The notes under the pieces are model-generated. The model worked only from the letters and a program-made list of their open reading frames with translations. It made no database searches and was not told the origin of the DNA. DNA of 64,000 bases from Ceratobasidium sp. AG-K (lineage: Eukaryota > Basidiomycota > Agaricomycetes > Cantharellales > Ceratobasidiaceae). This document shows positions 36,908 through 50,435 of this stretch, piece after piece. Position 1 is the stretch's first letter. The number at the start of each line of letters is the position of its first letter. The position numbers were made by a program, and so were the translations under genes. Where the stretch lies: assembly GCA_037039685.1 (NCBI GenBank), contig JAWNGF010000003.1:4252571-4316570 (forward strand), written 5' to 3'.

Positions 36908-37893
36908 TTAAAAGAGGTAACACTCAGACCATCGTGAGCCAATTAGTAAATCACGATAATCAATGGAGGCAGTACCGCAAGGGCCTATCAAAAGGGTGTT
37001 TCGAGGGTGGGGTACGTAGGAATGGAAGTCTGGGGATACCCAAAAGAACAGCCCGTGGGCATTTTTGAACCATCCTTCTTCTGTAGGTTGAAAGTCGTCA
37101 CCAATAGAAAGGATATCCCAGACTCGGATAACCGAATCTCTCGAGCCAGAGACAACCCTCCTACCGTCAGGGGAGAAGGCAACTGAGTTGACCATCCTCG
37201 TATGCCCTTGCTGAAACCTGACGATGATGCTATTGGACCTTGCGTCTTGGACTCGTATTATAAAATCCTGACAACTGGAAACAACCTTTGTACCATCAGA
37301 AGTGAAGGCGACCGATGTAACAGAGTCCCCATGTTCTTGAAATAGCCCAACTGCGACACCGCCAATGCCTGCGCCTCGTATTTGAATAGAGCGATCCCCG
37401 GAACCAGAAATAGTGGATGAACCATTGGGAGAGAACATAATCGAATTTAACTTGGGGATGAATCTTTGCAACGGCCTAGCTATGACCTGGCCGGTGCGTA
37501 CGTCCCAGATTAGGATGTGATGGCCGTAAGAACCTGAGACAATCCATGTGCCGTCTGACGAGAACGCAATCGTATTTACACCTGTTGTATGGCCTTCGAA
37601 TGGAGCAGAAATAGCATCGCCAGTGCTTACGTCCCACAACCGAATTGTTTTGTCATGAGAAGCAGAAGCAATGCACCTTCCGTTGGGAGAGAATACAGCC
37701 GCATTCACTGTGTCACTGTGTCCCTGAAATGGCCCAGCTACGGCGTCACCTGTACGCGCATTCCGCACCGAGATAGAGCGATCATCAGAGGCAGAGACAA
37801 TGTAGAGACCATCAGGCAAAAAGGCAACAGAGTTCACTTGGGCTATATGCCCATGAACTGGTTCAGCTCCGTCATTGGCAGTGTGTGCATTCC
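36908..37893 (-). pseudogene. 3' part of the NACHT-WD40 gene, separated from its 5' part by a transposon
   Basis: On the minus strand an open frame begins mid-blade at the transposon boundary (WNAHTANDGAEPVHGHIAQV) and continues without stops through about six WD40 units (VNSVAFLPDGLYIVSASDD, IASASHDKTIRLWDVSTGD, VVSGSRDSVIRVWD) to the family-specific tail GWFKNAHGLFFWVSPDFHSY and the end SRWSECYLF. There is no ATG at the 5' edge and a TGA formed by transposon sequence precedes the Trp. The missing upstream half of this blade (NDKSIRI) ends exactly at the other transposon boundary at 46,760. The fragment shows no decay, which suggests the insertion is recent. As it stands it cannot be translated as part of the NLR unless the element is removed. 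Confidence 0.85.
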
Positions 37894-37895
37894 AT

Positions 37896-37907
37896 CATCA
37901 GTAAAAC
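37896..37907 (+). repeat. Left terminal inverted repeat of the transposon
   Basis: CATCAGTAAAAC, inverted counterpart of the sequence at 46747-46758, preceded by the AT target dinucleotide. Confidence 0.8.
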
Positions 37908-37908
37908 G

Positions 37909-38215
37909 GGTCTAAAATTTAAAGTGCTTTCAATCACATACCTATCTTTCAATCAATTGTAATCTAAGGCCCATATTTAATGTAGTTTCAAGCACTCTCA
38001 ATCTGCCGTTGTGATTGTCATTGGTTTCAATCAGCCGATACGATTGTAGTTGTTTGAAATTTGACTCGGGATAATTTTGGCCACTTTCAATCCGTGTTCG
38101 TGCTCCAAATCACACTCAATCCACGTTCACGCGTCAAATCACTCTCAATCCATGTTTACGCGTCAAATCACTTCAAACCTCACCACGAAGTCGCAAAATC
38201 ACTTTGAATCCTGAT
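37909..38215 (+). repeat. Left subterminal repeats of the transposon
   Basis: Starts with GGTCTAAAATTTAA, then a run of degenerate units around CAAATCACTCTCAATCC (for example at about 38100, 38135 and 38165). The same core occurs inverted at the right end. Such subterminal arrays are typical transposase-binding regions; that role is inferred. Confidence 0.75.
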
Positions 38216-39471
38216 TTCTGCATGGGATCACTCAACAGCTCCCCGGAAGCTTTAAATCGTTTCACATCGAACTTGGATAGGGGGCAAATGAAAGTTTTCC
38301 AACGTACCGCAAGCCTTGCAACCTCGCGCACCGGTTCACATTTTGAGCGAGTGCGACTTTTTCAATTTCAGATGGGCACGCCCGACGTATGCAACTCAAC
38401 TTTCCATTGCTCAAACAGTCTAATTTGGTGGTTTACATTTCACCTCGTATATGTACCACATACTTGTCGATCGATATAATGAACAAAATAACTAATGTAC
38501 GCGCGCGCAGAAATTTGACAAGCTCTCTACCACGAAGGCCTTTTCGGCAACTGAGATGGTGTGTGTGTGTTAAGGGGGCGCTGGCGGAATATTCAGACAT
38601 AATACTGACCAAACGCGTGGCGACGCACCTAAAGCAACACAGATAACCTGTTTTTTTCAGTAGTCCGACTCGCGCAACTCCGGAGCTGAGCACAAGTGAA
38701 AGTGTAGACACGTCGGGCCGGTAGACGCCTCGAGCGCGGCGAGCGTAAGAAGAGGCGGGCGTGGGTGGATAAACCGGCGCAAGGAACCACGGGTGCGGGT
38801 ACGACTGCGGTGCGCCAGGAAATGAGATATCGAGGTCGAGTGGGAACGGCAGGCCCGAGCAAAGGCAATACGGGCAGGCCGAGAACGGAAACTGCGGGTT
38901 GAGAGTGACACGAATGCGACACGAGAATAGGGCGGGGATGAGACGAGGACGTGACGAGGAGGTGACGGCGATGAGGGGGGAGGGGAGACAGGGAGGAGAT
39001 AGGGAGAAGGGGACGAGACGGGGACGAGACGGGGACGAGACGATGGTACGAGAGGCGTGAGTCGGCAACGCATGGCTCGAGAAGGACGTACTGACCAGCT
39101 ACAACAGCGCCAGCACCAGGCGTTACACGAGACTCGAGTCGTGATTCGGACTCGGGCGCCAAGGAACTGGCCGAAACAACGCAGGGCCTTGAAACTTGGC
39201 GCCCGAAAGGGGCTGACCCCGAAAATCTGTTTGGGAATAGACAGAGTGGGTTCGTGTACATCGTTTTCTATCGCCACTCCGAGTACTTACTGAAATCGAA
39301 CCCGGGGACGACCAAAGCGGTGATGCCTATTGGCAGGGTCGAGGCGAGGTGCTCGCGTAGCCAAGGGTGGGCATCTGCGGCATCCCTGCTTGAACGAATG
39401 TGTAGATAGAAACCTTGAAAGAAGATTGTATGTCAGCGACGGTTGAGCACAGCAAACAAAATGGACGAACC
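38216..39471. other. Left non-coding part of the transposon
   Basis: Between the subterminal repeats and the transposase stop. Several overlapping open frames on the minus strand (38433-39277) are Pro/Arg/Ser-rich and show no family pattern; they coincide with a low-complexity G/C-rich tract and are not called as genes. Confidence 0.4.
39009..39042 (+). repeat. Simple repeat, three GGGGACGAGAC units
   Basis: Three tandem 11-bp units in a purine-rich tract inside the transposon. They create spurious open frames on the other strand. Confidence 0.8.
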
Positions 39472-42400
39472 TTAGCGTGTGACCAAACGATTCTCCCAGT
39501 GTCGCAGGACGTTGAAAACAAAGTAGGACGCGTAACGGTTAAGGTGGAAGATGCTACAGGTTTCCAGCAAGTCGGCGGACGACGAGATCTCGTGAGTCGG
39601 TAAGAGAGAGCTGAACCGGGGGGTAAGGTGACAAGCCATTTGAAGCCTCGAGAGCGGCATGACGGAGACACGTCGGGCGGAGGGACCGCTCATATCGTGG
39701 CTGGTGGAATAAAAGCCGTCCGCGGATCCAGGTTTGGCCGAGAACGCCTGGAAGTGCTCGATATAGACGAGCTTTTTGCTGTAGATATGCTGAAGGTGTC
39801 GCGGTAATTTAAATATGACTCGCACGCGACCAGCGCCGTAGCCTGTATACATTGAGTGTCCTCAACAAACATTCTGTGGGGGGAGAAATAACAAGAACTT
39901 ACGGTGGATACCCTGTTTCTCAGGGTTAGTGACGAATAGCGCGGTGTCGAAAGCACCGTGGCGTGTCAAACGGTTGTAATCGTCGCGTAGCTCGGGGGTC
40001 GCACGGATAGTATCGACCTGGGGCCCATCTTCGGGAAGAAATGGCAGGCGTCCGTGTTCGAGTCGGCAGCGGTGCCAGACGGCAAAGGCCTGCGTTTTAT
40101 CGAGTGGGACGCGTGTGCGATTGGGGTTGCGGCTACGGAGGAATGCCTTAGTGGCTTCGACGATGGTAGTCGCGTGGTAATTTTTCGCCAGGGAAGCGCC
40201 AGTCCTGGTCACGTGACTCTTGTCCCTCGCAGTCGACACCAACGGACGAGGGTGCCAAACCAAGTCCGAGTCCCATTCGCGGCGGACTTCAGGAGGACCC
40301 TCTGGACTCTCGTCCGCCGGCTGCCCCATCACTCGACCTAGCGGCCCAGCTCGCTCCTTCCCCCGTCTTGGCTGGCAAACGACCTCGAATTTGCCTCCAT
40401 CCTCGTCGGCCCCGGGATCTCCGGCCTGGTCGGGCAATCCGCTCAAACTGTCACCGCTCGGAAGGATGCCGATGTCGATTAGGTGAGTACGGAGTAAGAC
40501 CCATGCCTCCCGCCGCTGAAGGTATTTCGTCATCTGGGGCATAGGGTTGACTTTGTTGGACGCGCGCCAGCCGTCCTTGACGTACTCGATGTGCAACCGC
40601 TCGGTTGCTTCGCTATTAAAGTTGTCGGGGGTTCCAAGGCTGCGAATCGAGTCGGCAAAGTGTCGTAGCATGTGAAGCTTAGGGGTACCGTCGAAACTCC
40701 CTTTGCCGATCACCTCCGGTTTGTTGAATACCTTCTTGAGTTCGTGGAATTTGGCTAAACACGTCTCTAGATCGGATATGTCTTCCTCGGTCATCTGCGA
40801 CAGGTGCGCCAAACGCATAAAATCGACCAGATTCCGCGACGCGGCGACAGCGTCCGACTTGTCGCATCCCGAGGCAACCGCCATGAAAACTTGGGCGAGC
40901 GATTTGGCCTCTTTGCCGGACCACTGGGAGATTTTCGACTTCCCGTAACTGAAGTGGCGAAGGCCTGGGGCGCGTGGGAGACCGGTCAACCAGCGATCGA
41001 ACTGTTTAGGGGTCAACAGGTTCGTCATCCACTTCACTACGTGGTCAAGGAAAACACCCTTGTTGACCTGATGCAGCAGGTCGGGCGTGATTGCGCCGGG
41101 AATGTCGGCAAACGGGAGTTTCTCCCAGAACGGGCGGACTGGGCGATAGCCCAGCTTTCGGAGCGCAGGTCCAGGTCGCCCTCGCGCTCCATCCAACGCT
41201 TCGAAAAAGTCCAACTTGTCTCGTTTGCGATGAGACCGACTGCAGTCCCCACGGCCTTTTAACGGGCTATGGCATATAGGACACCCACTTTGCCGAACGC
41301 AGGAAACGAGACATTGCTCCGGCCAATCGCCAACAAACGCCGAGACGATGGGAAAAACAAGGCGGACGCCGCCGTCGGCACACAGCATCTCGATTCCGCG
41401 CTCGCCAGCCTTCTGCAACGGCTTCAAGAGGCGCTTCATACACTTGTGGTAGAATTGCCACCCCTCCTTTCCGTTCTCCGGAACCACGGGGATATAGCCG
41501 AGCAGAATTTGTGCGTGTTCGGATGGACGTCGGCGGAGCGATTTGCTGATGTTGCCGATGGTTAGGTACACCGGCCACGCGACACGACTGCCGCTCATGA
41601 GCGACATTTGGGTCTTATCGGTCGACAGTATGACCGTTGCGACTGTAGCTCCACGCCCGCCGCCCAGCGCATTCTATAACCCCCAAACAAAGTAAGTATT
41701 CTCGTACGTTGATTCATGTTGTTCAAAAGGCTTACCTGTAGTCGCCACCATCGGTTACCTGTCCAGACCTCTCCGTAGATCCGGCGTGCACGCGATCTTG
41801 AGGTGTACTGGCGGACGGGTGCGTACCGCATATGCTTGGCAAAGCGACGTGTTGACATCAGCTGGCGTATGACATCGACTGGGTTACGGGTCCAAAAGTC
41901 GATCCATTCGCCCTTTGGATCCTTAATGACCAGTTTCGTCCAATCGGGACCGTGCGGTAGCTCATCGACATCCTCGAGGAAGTCGCGACAACTGCGCCAG
42001 GGCAGTGTGGTGTTCTAGGAACAGGTAAGCCTTGGCAAAAACTACCAATCAACCGACTCACATATTTACGCAGGTACTCCTCGCGTTTCCCGTTGCTGAC
42101 GTGGATGTTCCCCAGCCATTCGCCATGCTCGAAGAGCTTAGCGTCCTCCCACATGGGATTATAGGGACGCTTGGGGGGTTCGGGCGCGACCTGCCATCGT
42201 AGGACGCCCCCAGCGGTCGGGTCAGGGTGTGGTTCTTCGTGAATCGACCTGTGCGGTGGGCGGCAGGGAGGGGTAGGAGTCACTTTCGGTGGGGGGCCCC
42301 GCCAGTACACACCGTCATCCGCCTCGTCTTCGCCATCGGTGGTATCGCCGCTCTCGTCGTCGTCGCTGTCCCATTCCGACTCCGTGGCCGCATCGTCTGG

Positions 42401-42790
42401 AACAAAATCCGAGTCGTGGTCGTGGTCGCTAGCGTTGCCGTAACCAGGGGGCGGGACCAGCTGGTCGTTTTCATCGTGAGTCCAACCACTCGGGCCAGCG
42501 TGGTCGAAACCATCTTCCATTTCAACATCTTCGATGACGACCGGTTCTTCCTCAGGCGGTGGCTCTAGAACAACCTTGGGCGATCGCAATCGCAGTGGTT
42601 TTGTCGGTGCAGGATGGGATGTGGGGTTGCGGGCGTAATTCCAGTGAGCTGCAACCACGCGCGCATCATACTCGGCAAGATGATATTTACGACACTTAGG
42701 CACTTGAGAATAGTGATATACAAGACCTCGAGAACTGGGCAAAGTTTTCTTGCAACAGCGGCAGCGAAGGTGCAATTTTGGGGGGATCAT
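39472..42790 (-). CDS. KDZ (Plavaka-type) transposase
   Basis: Exons 42790-42062, 42014-41736, 41673-39903 and 39860-39472 give about 1,050 residues. Order: an N-terminal C2H2-like finger (LRCRCCKKTLPSSRGLVYHYS), an acidic linker, a Plavaka-like segment (PHGPDWTKLVIKDPKGEW, FWTRNPVDVIRQLM), then the RNase H-like core. Candidate catalytic acids are the Asp of VILSTDKTQ, the Asp of FVGDWPEQ or LCADGG, and the Glu of NFNSEATERLH. The sequence WPVYLTIGNISKSLRR, a CPICHSPLKG zinc knuckle and GAITPDLLHQVNKGVF are hallmarks of this family in basidiomycetes. The C-terminal exon (RLQMACHLTPRF, SADLLETC) is also typical. No stop or frameshift is visible, so the enzyme may be active. It lies inside terminal repeats that support mobility. 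Confidence 0.88.
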
Positions 42791-42989
42791 GGTACGATGT
42801 GTAGTGGGCGACGTTCACAGGAGGTGAGTTGGACTTGTGATTTTTCGACTGCTTACCCCTTGGACATCAGGGCGGTTGGAAGCCCTCCGATCCCAACTTC
42901 GATCCCAACTTCGATTTCGAGATGTATGCGCCCAAAGTCTGAGAATCGGCTGAAACCACCGCATCCTGCCTACGTATGCCAAGTAGGTA

Positions 42990-43008
42990 AGTGTCAGTTC
43001 CTGACACT
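42990..43008. other. Perfect hairpin AGTGTCAG-TTC-CTGACACT
   Basis: An 8-bp perfect inverted repeat with a 3-nt loop lies in the 500-bp spacer between the divergent transposase and DUF6532 genes. It could be a binding site in a shared promoter or coincidence. Confidence 0.4.
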
Positions 43009-43291
43009 GTGAAGGCCATTTGCATTAACCTTTGATTTTCGAAGCCAAAATGAATGGGCTTCGAGCTCCAAACGCAGCAACGAAGCACAGTCTTCTTGCT
43101 TCTAATGAGATGGCCCAGGGTTCGGCGCCCGCTTTCAGAGTTCCTCGTATATAGACTCTGCAAAATTACTCTCGAAGGCAGAGCGCCCCCTTCGTTCGTT
43201 CGCCTCCTCCCTTGCCAAAACCTCCACGACCTCAACCTTCTTCTACACGCGCTTGGAACACTCCATTCTCTCATCGCGTGCCGCGTTCAAC

Positions 43292-45965
43292 ATGGCCGGA
43301 AGCGAGTCCGACAGCTCTACGGGCCGTCCACAGCGCCCGCCCAAGATCCCCGCGAACGCGTTTGAGTATGGTATGTCTGGCGACCGCTTATCCAAACACA
43401 TTACTAACTTCGTTTGAAGTGAGCAAGCACCAGCCTTCGGTGATGGCGCGGCTGTCTCAGGCTAGCACCACCGCTGTTGTTTCTGAAGGTATGTTCTCTT
43501 TTACCACCACTATTCCGTCGTTGCATCGCTAAACCGATACGCGTAGCCCCACCTGCTGTCCCTCGCAAGAAGCCTGCCTCGCGCTCTCGAAGGGACTCTG
43601 ATGCCATGCCATCAACCGAGTCGGAGTCGGAGCCAGCACCGAAGCGACAAAAGAAGGGAAAGAATAAGGTTGACAACCCCGAGGAGATGCTTGGTAAGTT
43701 GGCCCAAACTTAGCAAAGACCGATTGTTAACTTGTCATTTAGATATCCCGTATGACACACTGACCTCCGACACGGACCGCGAGCGCTGGCTCCTGACTAT
43801 GCTCCGTGTTCGCGACTCCCGCGATTATTCGGATGAAGGTTTTGCGATCAACAATCTCGAATTTCTATGGTTAGGTTCCCCGAACTACCAGGTATGTTTC
43901 CCACACCGTTGTCAGCTACGTGTTACTAATCTCGCGATTCCCCACCAGCCACCACCCTCGCATGATGCCCCATTGTCTCTCAAGAGGACAGACAGCCTTA
44001 CGGTTGTCCCGGGTGATCCCCTACCCTCATTTAAGAAGAACGCACACAAAGGTATGTTCGTGGCAACATTGTTTACTTGATGCACCGAGCTAACAATCAA
44101 TGTTCGTCAGGACCTAGTAGCTTAGCGGGTTCTCAGCCAGTTGGTGGGCGCCCGTCCCCATGGGTTGGTGGCGTCAGCCCGGTGCCTGCACCTCCAAAGG
44201 CTACCTCGTCGCAGGCCCGTGTTACCACGCGTCTCCGTATCCTCCCACCAACGGTTCAACCTGTCGGGACGTCCGCAGACGTCACTCATGATGCAGCACT
44301 GCACAATCCCCCAAGTCCAGATGCCCGCTCAGCCAACTTAGGCCCACCCGCCCCCGACTCCCCAGCCCGTTCTTACGTTGGAGAAGTGCCAGGCGATTCA
44401 CCTCCTCGCGAGGTGGCTGAGGACGCTCCCTCGTCGCCTGCGCATGCGTCACCCGGCCCCAATGCCGGCCTCTCTTTGGCCTCGCCTCCGCTCGAAGGCA
44501 CCCCACCCGACCGGCTCTTGTCCACTTCACCTCTGCCACGACCGGTACCCAAACATTATGGCCTTCAACGACCGGCACCTGGCGAGCAGGAAGACGAGTC
44601 CGATGACCTCCCTGAGCCAGAGGACATCATGATGTCAGACCGGGAACTTCCCAAGGAAAAGCCCAAACGGAAGAGTACACGAAGGGGGGCAAATCTGGCT
44701 CAAGGTGTTCCCGCTGCTGGGAATGCCGCCCAGGCGGATGCTAATGAGTTGCCTGAGTTTGAAGGTGCAATCCCATCTAATACATTATAGTTCAAACGCT
44801 AATTTTATTTTACTAGATGCTGGAGTGAATGTCCCCGTCGAGGGGCTTCTCACCATGAGGCAGCGGTCACAACGGCGTTGGTTTGGCCGTGCCATTCCCC
44901 TTGTTGATCGTCTCGCCGAGCGGCTCGTACTCCGTGCGCTCACTGGGAATCCATTTGCCGATTGTACCCCTGTCATTGTTGACAATGACGAAGACGGTGT
45001 TCCGATTGCTGAAGGGGTGGAATTTGATCAGATCGTCATCGACGAATGGATGGCCGTTAACCACGAGATGCGCCCGGGACAACTTCCCTTCAAATTGCAT
45101 GAAGAATACCGGTTCAATGTAAGTTTTCTTACGTTTGTTGTTGTTAGTCATTAACTCACCTTTGATGTTAGGTGAAACAAGTTTATACTCAGATCCGAAA
45201 TGCTATCAAGGCTGTCACCATTGGCTATGTCAAAACATACTACAAGCTTGGCCCTGATTGTTCGCCAAAGGATGTTCGGAAACGTGTTCAGAATTTACTC
45301 GACGATAACTTCCACTCAAGTGTATGTACCACATCTGCGTCTGATCAAATCCGAGGCTGATATCACGATAGTCCTATGAACTTGGTCCAAACGAGTTCAA
45401 ACACAAGATTCTTGCCGATACCATTGGTCAAGCTCACTTTGCCGTGCCCGGCAAATCTATCGGCTATCGGTTTGCTAAACACTTCAAGCCTATGCCACGA
45501 CCAACTATTGCACTTCACTGCACAATTGTATGTCTGAGACTGTTGCCCTTGGCCTTGCTGACACCCTCCAATAGATTTACTTCCTTATCACAACTTTCAG
45601 CACTGGACATCAAAACCAGAGCGCGACTCTTGATGCTGAGATCCAGCGGCATTGGTTCAAGTACTACCTTGACCAGCTCAATGCAATGGCTCACCCGAAA
45701 GGGAACCCCGTCAGGATGTCAAACATTCAGAGGAGACTCTTCAAACAGGTTTAGTAAGTGATCATGACGTCCGAAGAGATAGTTTGATTGACCTGCTTGA
45801 TAGCCAAGTTGAACCTGTCCGTAAAGGACTTCCACGGCCTCGTCGTCGTGATTATGATACTGATAGTGAAGAGGAGGAGTTCTCTGAGATCGAGTTTTCT
45901 GATGATGGTGAGTGCACACTACTGTTGTAAAGCTTGTTGCCTGAATGTTTTATCCCTTAGATTAG
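43292..45965 (+). CDS. DUF6532-domain protein carried inside the KDZ transposon
   Basis: About eleven exons join with consistent phase from ATG 43292 to TAG 45963-45965 (about 640 residues). The N-terminal half is disordered (SESESEPAPKRQKKGKNKV looks like a nuclear localisation signal; a Pro-rich stretch covers 44110-44770). The C-terminal half is globular: DAGVNVPVEGLLTMRQRS, VKQVYTQIRNAIKAVTIGYV, then HKILADTIGQAHFAVPGKS, GYRFAKHFKPMPRPTIALHC and HWFKYYLDQLNAM, which fit the DUF6532 pattern (FxPMPxPTIAL...). It ends in an acidic tail (DYDTDSEEEEFSEIEFSDDD). DUF6532 is very abundant in agaricomycete genomes with no known function. Its position within the transposon termini, divergent from the transposase, suggests it is the second gene of the element. 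Exons as short as a 5-base terminal exon make the 3' end the least certain part. Confidence 0.75.
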
Positions 45966-46349
45966 ATGGACTGTTTTCCATCCCTATTGACGTTGATGGA
46001 CCCTTTGCTTGTATACGTTGTTGATGTTATGACCCAAGCTTTATATTTACCGACTCACAATTTCTTGGACCCGTGCCCTCTCATTACCTCTTGTTCTTAC
46101 AAGCTGACTTTTATTCCTCTCTGGATGTATACACGATCCATTTTTGCTGTTTCTGCCCTGTGACTTGTTCTGTCTTTCATGCCCCAACCTTCCTCTCACC
46201 CATGTGTTGTGATTTGACACTGACTAATTGCAATATGATTTTGAAGTTGACCGTGCCCATTGCAAGCTTGATCTCTAGGGCTGGCAGAGGTTTGAGTTGC
46301 CTACCTGCCTGATATCCACTAAACTGTGCTAGTCCTTTGGGTATTGGCC
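45966..46349. other. 3' flank of the DUF6532 gene inside the transposon
   Basis: AT-rich, no further gene seen before the right subterminal repeats. Confidence 0.4.
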
Positions 46350-46740
46350 AAAGATGATCAGGATTTGGGGATTTAACACTTTGAATTAGAAGTGATTTGG
46401 GGCTACATGGGTTGCATTTTAATGAATTGGAGGTCATAGATTGGATTTCAAGTGATTTGAGGTTGAATAGCTGGATTTTAAGTGATTTGGTAGTGAATGA
46501 TTGAATTTTAGGTGATTTGTGAGTCAAGGGTAGATTTCAAGTGATTTGTGAGTCAAGGGTAGCATTTCAAGTGATTTGTGAGTCAAGGATAGGATTTCAA
46601 GCAATTTCAAAACTATAGGGGAATTATAAGCAATTGAAATCACTCTGAGTCAATATACTGTTGATTTCAAGTGCTATTAAATTTAGACCTGGCTTATTGT
46701 GATTTGGTGCTTTAAAGTGATTTGAAGTGGTTATAATCCA
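46350..46740 (-). repeat. Right subterminal repeats of the transposon
   Basis: On the minus strand about ten units around CAAATCACTTGAAATC recur every 28-40 bp, the best kept being three with CTTGACTCACAAATCAC. GGTCTAAATTTAA at 46677-46689 (minus) pairs with the left-end GGTCTAAAATTTAA. Confidence 0.8.
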
Positions 46741-49700
46741 AGGTCACTTTTGCTGATGATATTCGGATGCTTTTGTCATTGGAACCAGAAAAAATGCGGG
46801 CACCGTTGGGAGAGAATAAAACCGAGTACACCTCAAATTTATGCCCTTGGAATGGCCCAGCTACAGTATCACCAGTTTGCGCGTCCCACACTCGGACGGT
46901 AGAATCAGACGATCCGGAGACAATACGTGTACTATCAGGAGAAAATGCAACCGAGTTGACCGAAGCTTTATGTCCCTTAAACGGCCCGGCAGCGGCAATG
47001 CCAGTGGTTGGGTTCCATACTCGTATGCCCCCTCCGTATGAGCCGGAGGCTATTCTAGTACCGTCGGGGGAAAACGCTACCGAGTTGACCGAGGACGCAT
47101 GGCCTTTGAATGGTGGAATGATGGCATTACCGGTCTGTAGACTCCAGACTTGGATAGTTTGATCACGGGATCCAGAGACAATTTTTGTACCGTCGGGAGA
47201 GAACATGACAGAATTTACCGATGATTTATGTCCCATGAATGGCCCAGCGACGGTGTTCCCGGTATATGTATCCCATACCCAAATTGTTCGGCCGTGCGAG
47301 CCTGAAACAATTTTTGTACCATCAGGAGAAAATGCAATGCAGTTGACCTGGTTCCTATGTCCCTTGAACAGCCCGGCAACGATATCTCCCGTATGCGCAT
47401 TCCATACACGGATATACCTATCATAAGAGCCGGATACAATGTGTGTCCCATCTGGTGAGAATGCAACTGAGTGGATCGACCCTCTGTGTGGTTCGAAAGG
47501 CTCAACAACCAAGGTGCCAGTACAAGCATTGCGCACACAAATCATTCCGCAGAGGCTACCTGAGACGACATACGCGCCATCAGCAGAAAGTCCAAGTGAA
47601 GTGACACTCTGATTTGTCATCCACGTTGCTTGGGCAGTGTTGCTCCCACGGCTTATTGCCGTCCCTTGAACGTCTATCAAACCTCGAGTTCTTCCCCAGT
47701 AGTGCACATATACCAAGCTAGATCTCGCGCAGAAGGGAAGTGCGGAGATATAAATGTGAGGCGTGCTGCGGCTACATGCGCCAGCTGCGAATCGGGATAC
47801 GAATTCCTTGGCGTCTGAAACAAATTGTTGGGTGGACATTGGAGCGTTGGTGACCTATCATATGTTCAATATCCATAACTGAATTTCCAACCACCAGACT
47901 TACAAGCAACCATTCTTCAGCCTGGGAAAGCGTCAATATCCCCTTCACAGTGCACCGCTGCAAGCTCAGCACTTCCATCCAAAAAAGCAACCTATCAGTC
48001 AAAAGGTCAACTATTCCTTGGTGAAGTGTGTCCAAGGGCCCTGATAAATGCAAGTGATCTCCCCAGAAAGAGCATGAATAAAACAGGGCTGGTGATATTG
48101 TATCCTTGATCCGTTGATCCAGGTCTATAACTTCGCTGTCGAGAACACACGACGACTCGAGGTTGCAGATATTGAACTGGAGCTGGTTCTTCATCACCTC
48201 GAAACATCTCTGCGCTAGCAATCCATTGTGCTGTATGCGATCGCAACAAAACTTGCCAGACCGGGAACAATCAAGCATGTAGTCAGAGAACGAAGCATGC
48301 AGGGTAGAGACAAGCTCGCTGAATTCGGACACATGGAGTACCGAGCGTAGCGGCTGCAAGGCAGACAACACCTCGTATTTGTCGAGTGATAAAATTGATG
48401 CAAGTGTGGGAATGGTCATTGGCTCCCTAGCGCATATAGCCGTCCAGAGCACAACCCGTATTGCTTCGACCTCCTCTGCTTCTAATTCTTTGTCGTTCAG
48501 CGCTGTGGAAAGAATATTTTTGTATAAATCGTCAAGCTGTTTGTGCTTTTTACCCAGCCCTTGCTTGGAGGTCGATAGTGATCCTGTCGCCAGAATGCTG
48601 TTTAATCGGTTTATCGAGTTGACAGCAGCCTTGCCCGGGAGGATGTATCGCATAACTGTGGCAGCATGGATAAACAGTTTTCCAGAGAGCTTCGCAAGTT
48701 GGTCGATTTGCTCATTGCTTGGCCTAGGGGACATCTGACTTAGCGACTCGGTAAAATAATTCTTGATGTCTTCTTCCACGACGGACTGTTCGATATCATG
48801 TAAGTGTAGTACAGACGGGGAATATCCACCCAGTGATAGCATATTTCCTCGAATGGAAGGTTCCGGTCGACTGGCCACGAAATACTTTAGGGGTAGACTC
48901 GGACCGAGTTTAAGCAGTGTCTGGAGAATACGCTGCACGCCAAAATCGTCCTCGCACTCGTCCAATGCATCGATCACAACCACTACTCCACTAGGCATAG
49001 TACTTGCAGCCTCTTGCATTGGGTCACGGAGTAGCCTCTCGAACTGCGGTGCCGTACCCAGTCTGCTGACCTCCGGCTCATTCTCCAGAACCCTGACTAA
49101 TGCCGCTCGAAATGCTTGCAAGTATTGGGCAAGCTGATATGCAATGGTGGGCAAAATCGAGTTCACGTTTTGGCACAAAGGGGAATTACGGGAACAGAAG
49201 AAGCTGGCCCCCAGCTGGCGTTTGACTTGAAGCCACTTGCACAGGGTATACGCAATAGTTGTCTTCCCGGTTCCAGCCATGCCGTTCATCCAATACACCT
49301 TGGCCCCATTTGGATCTTGAACCCAATCTTGTAGTTCTGCTTGTACTTGCTTACGCGTCTCCTCAGTGCATCCACGTCGCTTGATGGTCTCCGAATAGCT
49401 TGAGTTGTATCGGGCGTCATCCACTGGGGAGATGCCTCGGAGCAATGTTGACTGCCAACTCATAATCAATTGGGTATCCAGTAGGCCACTTCACATCGAC
49501 TTTACCATGTTCTGTTTTTTTAGGTCCCTCAATGTTTGAAGACCAATATCACTCTGTCCACGCTTCAGCAATCTTTGACGCTCTGGGCAGTTGGATGTTT
49601 ACCTGGAATTGTCGAAACAGCCCTTCAATTCGGCGATAATGCTGAATCACATTGGCATTGTCATCCGCCGCCTCGAGCGCCTTCCTTGCCTTGCTACGCT

Positions 49701-50435
49701 CTCGCTGCTTTGCTATGTGCGCAACCTCGGCCTGAATGGCCCTATATATCCTCATTAACACCAATATCACTCGCGTCAATGCTCCTTCCTTACGACGCAA
49801 TACGGGTGCACGATGCGCGACTGCTGTAGTCATCTGGACTCAGTTCGCCAAGGTATTCATTGAGGGTGCGTGCCATTGTCTGGAGTTCTTCAGTAAGTTC
49901 GTCGTACTCTTTACCGTTCTTTGTAGCGGCCTAAACCCCATTTAGACTCGTTCCTGGATACGAAAAGCAAATTATGGCTTACCTGTATAATATCCCGGCA
50001 ATCAACAAATGCGCCGATGGCTGGTTTTAAAGGAGGTATGATATCTGCACTGATGTGTAGAGCCCGGAGCGCAGACTCCAGTCCGGAGGTAACCGCATCC
50101 TGTAGATTGTTCATGGTCCCTGTTTTAACGCCGGTCACAGCTGCAATAGGTGTCGAGTCAGAGTCCACAGTTGGTAGCCCGCCAGACAGGCTATCAATTT
50201 CCGGGGTAGGGCCTTGAGACGAAATGGAAAGAGTAACAGCAGATTTAGATTTAGATGAATAAGGTGTTGGGGATCGACTCCGAGAAACTGATCTAGCGCC
50301 TCGCGATGAAGAGCGTGAGCTTTTGCGATTTGGCGATGGAGGTCGGAGAAATGATTTAACTCGCTTGAAGCCCAATTGCGCAGCATTTTCCGCATATTTA
50401 CGCTTTGAGAATGGCTCCGATGGAGGGGAAGCCAT
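46712..50435 (-). CDS. 5' part of an NLR-type NACHT-WD40 gene, truncated by the transposon
   Basis: The start ATG at 50435 (MASPPSEPFSKRKY) begins an N-terminal domain of about 200 residues with a basic, Ser-rich stretch (KRVKSFLRPPSPNRKSS) and helices ending in HYRRIEGLFRQF. A 52-nt intron near 49808-49757 is needed to keep frame. The NACHT domain has Walker A GMAGTGKTT and Walker B VVVVIDALDECED. Downstream helical repeats lead to about seven WD40 units (VNSVAFSPDGTRIASGS, VRVWDAQTGDTVAGPF). The frame passes the insertion point after NDKSIRI at 46760 and picks up about 15 foreign residues before a stop at 46712 inside the transposon end. Fungal NLRs of this type are linked to non-self recognition and cell death; that is family knowledge. 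The exact splice between the N-terminal domain and NACHT (49550-49480) is unresolved. Confidence 0.85.
46747..46758 (-). repeat. Right terminal inverted repeat of the transposon
   Basis: Read on the minus strand: CATCAGCAAAAG, followed outward by the AT target dinucleotide at 46759-46760. Confidence 0.8.

Follow-up and report, generated by a model that had tools for sequence, protein, structure and literature searches.

The window analysed here, 64,000 nucleotides of the fungus Ceratobasidium sp. AG-K, comprises positions 4252571-4316570 of contig 3 (assembly of 53.6 Mb in 17 contigs, the basis of all genome-wide counts). A 693-aa part of RPB2 matched Rhizoctonia solani best (89% over its full length, 90% over 83% of it), ahead of the second match with 85%, which suggests a place in or near the Ceratobasidiaceae. 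The minus strand of the window contains a gene for a NOD-like receptor (NLR) with a NACHT-type ATPase and WD40 repeats, which runs from an ATG at 50435 to a stop at 36908 and is interrupted by an insert at 37896-46758. Judged by its transposase domain, its ends and the duplication at its borders, the insert is a PlavakaB-type DNA transposon. The features of the locus are listed below; the introns of the NLR gene were predicted from GT-AG borders and reading frame only.

36908-37893, minus strand: 3′ part of the NLR gene, covering the remainder of blade 7, another six WD40 units and the C-terminal tail; free of internal stops up to the stop codon at 36910-36908
37894-37895, no strand: target-site duplication AT, left copy
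37896-46758, no strand: PlavakaB-type DNA transposon, 8,863 bp, with CATCAG..CTGATG ends and PF18759
39327-42790, minus strand: Plavaka transposase gene; with four predicted introns removed, the frame is open for about 1,080 codons from ATG 42790 to stop 39327 (drawn by script)
43292-45910, plus strand: other gene carried by the element, oriented head-to-head to the transposase gene; limits approximate, set by eye; DUF6532 match within 45372-45761
46759-46760, no strand: target-site duplication AT, right copy
46761-50435, minus strand: 5′ part of the NLR gene, ATG 50435, encoding the N-terminal region, the NPHP3_N/NACHT ATPase, all of WD40 blades 1-6 and the first half of blade 7
49982-49931, 49793-49742, 49602-49554, 49505-49452 and 47903-47855, minus strand: predicted introns of the 5′ part (GT-AG and frame)

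The 5′ part has 1,140 open codons after splicing of the five predicted introns and ends with NDKSIRI at the insert. The initial annotation had described the gene as open up to this motif, which holds for the spliced 5′ part and not for an unbroken frame, since the introns intervene. The 3′ part, which had been described as free of decay, indeed contains 328 open codons from WNAHTANDG to the stop. The Pfam model NPHP3_N (PF24883) matched with 109.7 bits (cut-off 24.8), as expected for the STAND ATPase of a fungal NLR, and the NACHT model PF05729 reached 24.8 bits, slightly below its cut-off of 26.7. WD40 matches, representing the C-terminal ligand-sensing repeats of such receptors, were present both before and after the insert. 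In the N-terminal region, the place of the effector domain in fungal NLRs, no Pfam family scored above its cut-off up to residue 290. The HET domain, which the known incompatibility NLRs have, gave no match up to an E value of 1 in the 778-aa N-terminal part. The 11 complete blades have a mean pairwise identity of 0.44 (highest 0.67), and thus are not the highly identical repeats of HNWD incompatibility genes (het-d/het-e type). The role in non-self recognition that had been ascribed to the family is, for this receptor, a candidate role. The 120 best-scoring homologous proteins carry mostly Ceratobasidium or Rhizoctonia names (assessed by eye), and two of the three best are from Flammula alnicola. 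The last 75 residues of the NLR, which include part of a WD40 unit, matched 102 of these 120, and in the 12 homologues displayed the match stopped not more than three residues from the homologue's own end.

The insert was predicted to encode a transposase with PF18759, the transposase domain of PlavakaB (E values of 3e-69 and 5e-20 in two overlapping frames), and its second gene matched PF20149 (DUF6532) with an E value of 4.5e-9. PlavakaB elements have been described with 5′-CATCA..TGATG-3′ ends and target-site duplications of 2 or 3 bp (PMC12730594). Both the ends of the insert, CATCAG from 37896 and CTGATG up to 46758, which are located exactly as had been claimed, and its AT duplication fit this description. 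A Helitron was ruled out by the inverted ends and the Plavaka transposase. A second long copy on contig 6 shares CC before and ATTC after the AT with the window copy, so that true ends further outside were considered; this was rejected because none of 13 other elements has all these bases and because the tryptophan codon of the blade lies within them. The two long copies have the target CCATATTC in common, in which six bases lie outside the duplicated AT (37892-37895 and 46759-46764 in the window). The chance of such a common target is 2.4e-4 for one pair and about 0.026 for any of 105 pairs.

The insert interrupts the seventh WD40 blade. The WD40 motifs are spaced by 43 residues in all six intervals on the 5′ side and all five on the 3′ side, and the spacing across the cut is also 43 (19 + 24 residues), verifying that the two sides are in register within one blade, as had been proposed. 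The spacing in the 120 homologous proteins was used in place of a paralogue alignment. Its commonest value is likewise 43 (660 intervals), followed by 86, twice that number (109 intervals). A WD40 region that is discontinuous at the joint had been named as a possible objection to an insertion, and the homologues agree with continuity.

To place the element among its relatives, the genome was searched with the end pattern CATCAGYAAAAC, which yielded 52 matches compared with 28 for a reversed-pattern control. Twenty-six of the 52 form 13 close opposite-facing pairs, which enclose 0.13 or about 1 kb, and together with the two long copies these make 15 elements. Another 24 matches are unpaired and were set aside, their number being at the level of the control; three opposite-facing pairs among them, 20-27 kb apart, were not taken as elements. 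A perfect 2-bp duplication was found at 12 of the 15 elements, the window included (at one of them 3 bp), and at three there was none; the duplicated bases vary among elements. The AT on each side of the insert, at 37894-37895 and 46759-46760, had been noted before and is beyond chance, as 11 of the 14 other elements carry a perfect 2-bp duplication. The kinship of the short relatives to the window element is confined to the end sequences (left 38 bp, 85%; right 99 bp, 77%). Nine relatives are about 1 kb long and seven of them, some short of a few end bases, could be compared: six are 99.6-100% identical across contigs, indicating that this group moved recently, and the seventh is about 93% identical. 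A segmental duplication as the source of the identical elements was ruled out, as flanks and duplications differ.

The long copy on contig 6 has the same ends and about 95% identity, and it is broken up by other insertions. One of these, of 7.2 kb, splits it at 1608650-1615866 and is bordered by a repeat of about 6 bp of element sequence; a 0.46-kb insertion follows. Further long relatives are 65-78% identical. The window copy differs from the contig 6 copy by 382 substitutions over 8,842 aligned bases. At 311 of these the window copy has CpG and the contig 6 copy TpG or CpA, 15 are in the reverse direction, and 56 (0.63%) are others. Accordingly, the observed/expected ratio of CpG is 1.04 in the window copy and 0.64 in the contig 6 copy. 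In R. solani AG8, hypermutation with a bias to CpG has been described (PMC4014442). Because the CpGs were kept here, while nearly half of them were lost on contig 6, the window copy is, by this comparison, young or protected. The retention of CpG, the small non-CpG difference and the slight decay are in line with the earlier proposal that the insertion is recent.

What remains of the receptor was predicted by reading from the 5′ part into the element, which gives 15 more residues and then a stop. The predicted protein, about 1,155 residues long, would comprise the N-terminal region, the ATPase, six complete blades, half of the next one and the 15 foreign residues; alternatively, no protein would be made. 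As the propeller would stay unclosed, normal sensing has most likely been lost, and a loss of function of the NLR is likely. An allele without the insertion, which had been thought to exist perhaps in the other nucleus or in sister strains, was not found: in the own assembly, identity to the 3′ part was 67-69% for the other long DNA matches, and among the 120 best-scoring proteins the identity to the 5′ part is at most 58%.

Taken together, a cut-and-paste transposon of the PlavakaB type seems to have inserted at an AT in the seventh WD40 blade of a formerly intact NACHT-WD40 NLR gene and to have duplicated this AT, a reading to which a probability of about 0.9 is given, and from which the receptor loss follows as a prediction. 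The element would have come from a group of which some members in this genome are very young, and its entry would have left the flanks in register, so that the broken gene yields the truncated protein, with an unclosed sensor propeller and no normal sensing, or none. Such losses may be tolerated because NLR-type ATPase loci number at least 170 in the genome (counted after merging, from the best 89 of 270 and the best 150 of 340 candidates). Several points weigh against this view. The openness of the 3′ part is weak evidence for dating, because in simulated decay the probability that it stays open was 0.35-0.72 even at 1% divergence (0.81-0.94 at 0.2%, 0.004-0.23 at 5%). The slight CpG decay could result from an unmethylated location instead of youth, and the divergence between the two long copies leaves out twelve gap openings. 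The receptor may be rescued by splicing around the insert, or the truncated protein may work. As no uninterrupted allele was seen, the state before the insertion was deduced from the register and the homologues.

Four further elements are close to other NLR genes. A 1-kb relative on contig 3 (4523882-4524930, AG duplication) interrupts a second NLR gene and separates its ATPase from its WD40 part; on either side, NLR homologues can be aligned right up to the element. Upstream of a third NLR, about 170 bp from its likely ATG, is the long copy on contig 6. For a fourth NLR, on contig 7, a 0.13-kb relative precedes the start of N-terminal homology by about 190 bp, and on contig 9 a 1-kb relative follows the point where homology to a fifth ends, at a distance of 77 bp. 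Thus 5 of the 15 elements either interrupt NLR coding sequence or are no more than about 0.2 kb away from it. With a limit of 4 kb from a listed NLR ATPase the count is 5 of 15 (0.40 expected, P 3e-5), with 2 kb it is 3 (0.21 expected, P 1e-3) and with 10 kb 6 (0.88 expected, P 1e-4). When the window element is left out, 4 of 14 are within 4 kb (P 4e-4, or P 5e-3 with the NLR coverage doubled). The test is post hoc, since the idea followed the sight of the loci and the 4-kb limit was set afterwards, and it is small, with 15 elements of three sizes and a window selected for its insertion. The other 10 elements have no listed NLR within 4 kb. For five of these, and for elements from another subgroup, flanks were examined, mostly on one side, and neither a match to an NLR homologue (8 flanks) nor a Pfam match (9 frames) was found. 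On contig 2 (5717653) a 1-kb relative abuts a 317-codon open frame, perhaps another interrupted gene.

The excess may point to a process by which receptors continue to be lost, and two explanations for it were weighed. The better one, which we consider somewhat probable, does without targeting: the elements would settle at gene edges generally and persist at NLR genes because that family is large and redundant. It agrees with the large NLR repertoire, with the 10 of 15 elements that lie more than 4 kb from any listed NLR, with the varying target bases and with the element that abuts the frame on contig 2, which has no Pfam match. On the other hand, two comparison groups show nothing of the kind. 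Of 45 further loci with a Plavaka transposase (91 matches were combined by hand into 47 loci, and the two long copies counted among the 15 elements were subtracted) none was within 4 kb of a listed NLR (1.2 expected), one within 5 kb and two within 10 kb (2.6 expected). For retroelements, represented by the best 150 of 1,423 candidates, none was within 4 kb (4.0 expected) and, treated as 7-kb elements, 4 were within 10 kb (8.8 expected). Tolerance at these sites therefore does not serve all transposons alike, although both groups are long elements from best-scoring lists, which limits the counterpoint. The second explanation, that the young PlavakaB group and its short non-autonomous relatives prefer NLR genes or their borders as insertion sites and so keep generating presence/absence variation of receptors, is doubtful. 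A search of the open-access literature found no paper that joins Plavaka with NLRs; that NLRs are in general associated with transposable elements has been stated before (PMC12222747).

It is improbable that the truncated receptor still works, either because six blades and the ATPase suffice or because the receptor becomes constitutive or dominant without its distal sensor. The insert spares the ATPase and six complete blades, which are open, and the number of WD40 repeats is reported to differ among Podospora NLR genes and isolates (PMC1805685), but a half blade with a foreign tail remains. An assembly join of two loci, which had also been named as an objection, is very unlikely even though fragmented assemblies are known from NLR loci that have paralogues and transposons (PMC12222747), because both boundaries are exact element ends of the kind common to the 15 elements, 11 of the 14 others with such ends also show the 2-bp duplication, and the flanks are in the 43-residue register.

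The second gene of the element recurs elsewhere. Genome-wide, 35 matches to DUF6532 were merged to 32 loci (three neighbouring pieces were dropped), and at 29 of these a Plavaka transposase was found within 15 kb in head-to-head orientation. Therefore, DUF6532 is a regular second gene of Plavaka elements in this genome. It looks like a transposon-borne gene, and the pairing places a family of unknown function in these elements.

Apart from the insertion, the window contains a G+C-rich block at 11000-32000 (58-61% from 12 to 32 kb) with long minus-strand frames of 556, 917, 1257, 707, 1232 and 548 codons, none of which had a Pfam match. Residues 1-1200 of the 1232-codon frame had nine protein matches, all with Rhizoctonia or Ceratobasidium names, with 7,987 candidates scored.

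A transposon that breaks an NLR gene is, as a single event, ordinary; the interest lies in the recurrence at NLR genes and in the DUF6532 pairing. A clean young insertion in an NLR gene would represent a natural broken allele, the unbroken counterpart of which could be sought in sister strains. If the excess holds in other genomes, the site choice of transposons would be one answer to the question of how fungal NLR repertoires change so fast.

Of the known systems, PlavakaB transposons of the CMCT clade (PMC12730594) resemble the window element in the PF18759 transposase, the CATCA..TGATG ends and the 2-bp duplication. In contrast, 12 raw frames of the window element were scanned and had no TET/JBP match, and the element has the head-to-head DUF6532 gene, a term missing from the main text of that paper. 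The NWD/HNWD receptors of Podospora anserina (PMC1805685, PMC12222747) share the NACHT ATPase and the WD40 repeats, and that family also has broken members, NWDp3 being located directly after a transposon relic. Unlike these, the window NLR has no HET match, and its repeats are only 0.44 alike on average. The inactivation of Podospora NLR genes is ascribed in these accounts to repeat-induced point mutation (RIP) and to inversion, whereas the window NLR appears to have been split exactly by a young DNA transposon. At the allorecognition locus het-v of Podospora anserina transposons replace genes in one natural type (PMC9262711). There, about 12 kb with five genes are replaced and both types are known, while here one gene is split and is known from one allele.

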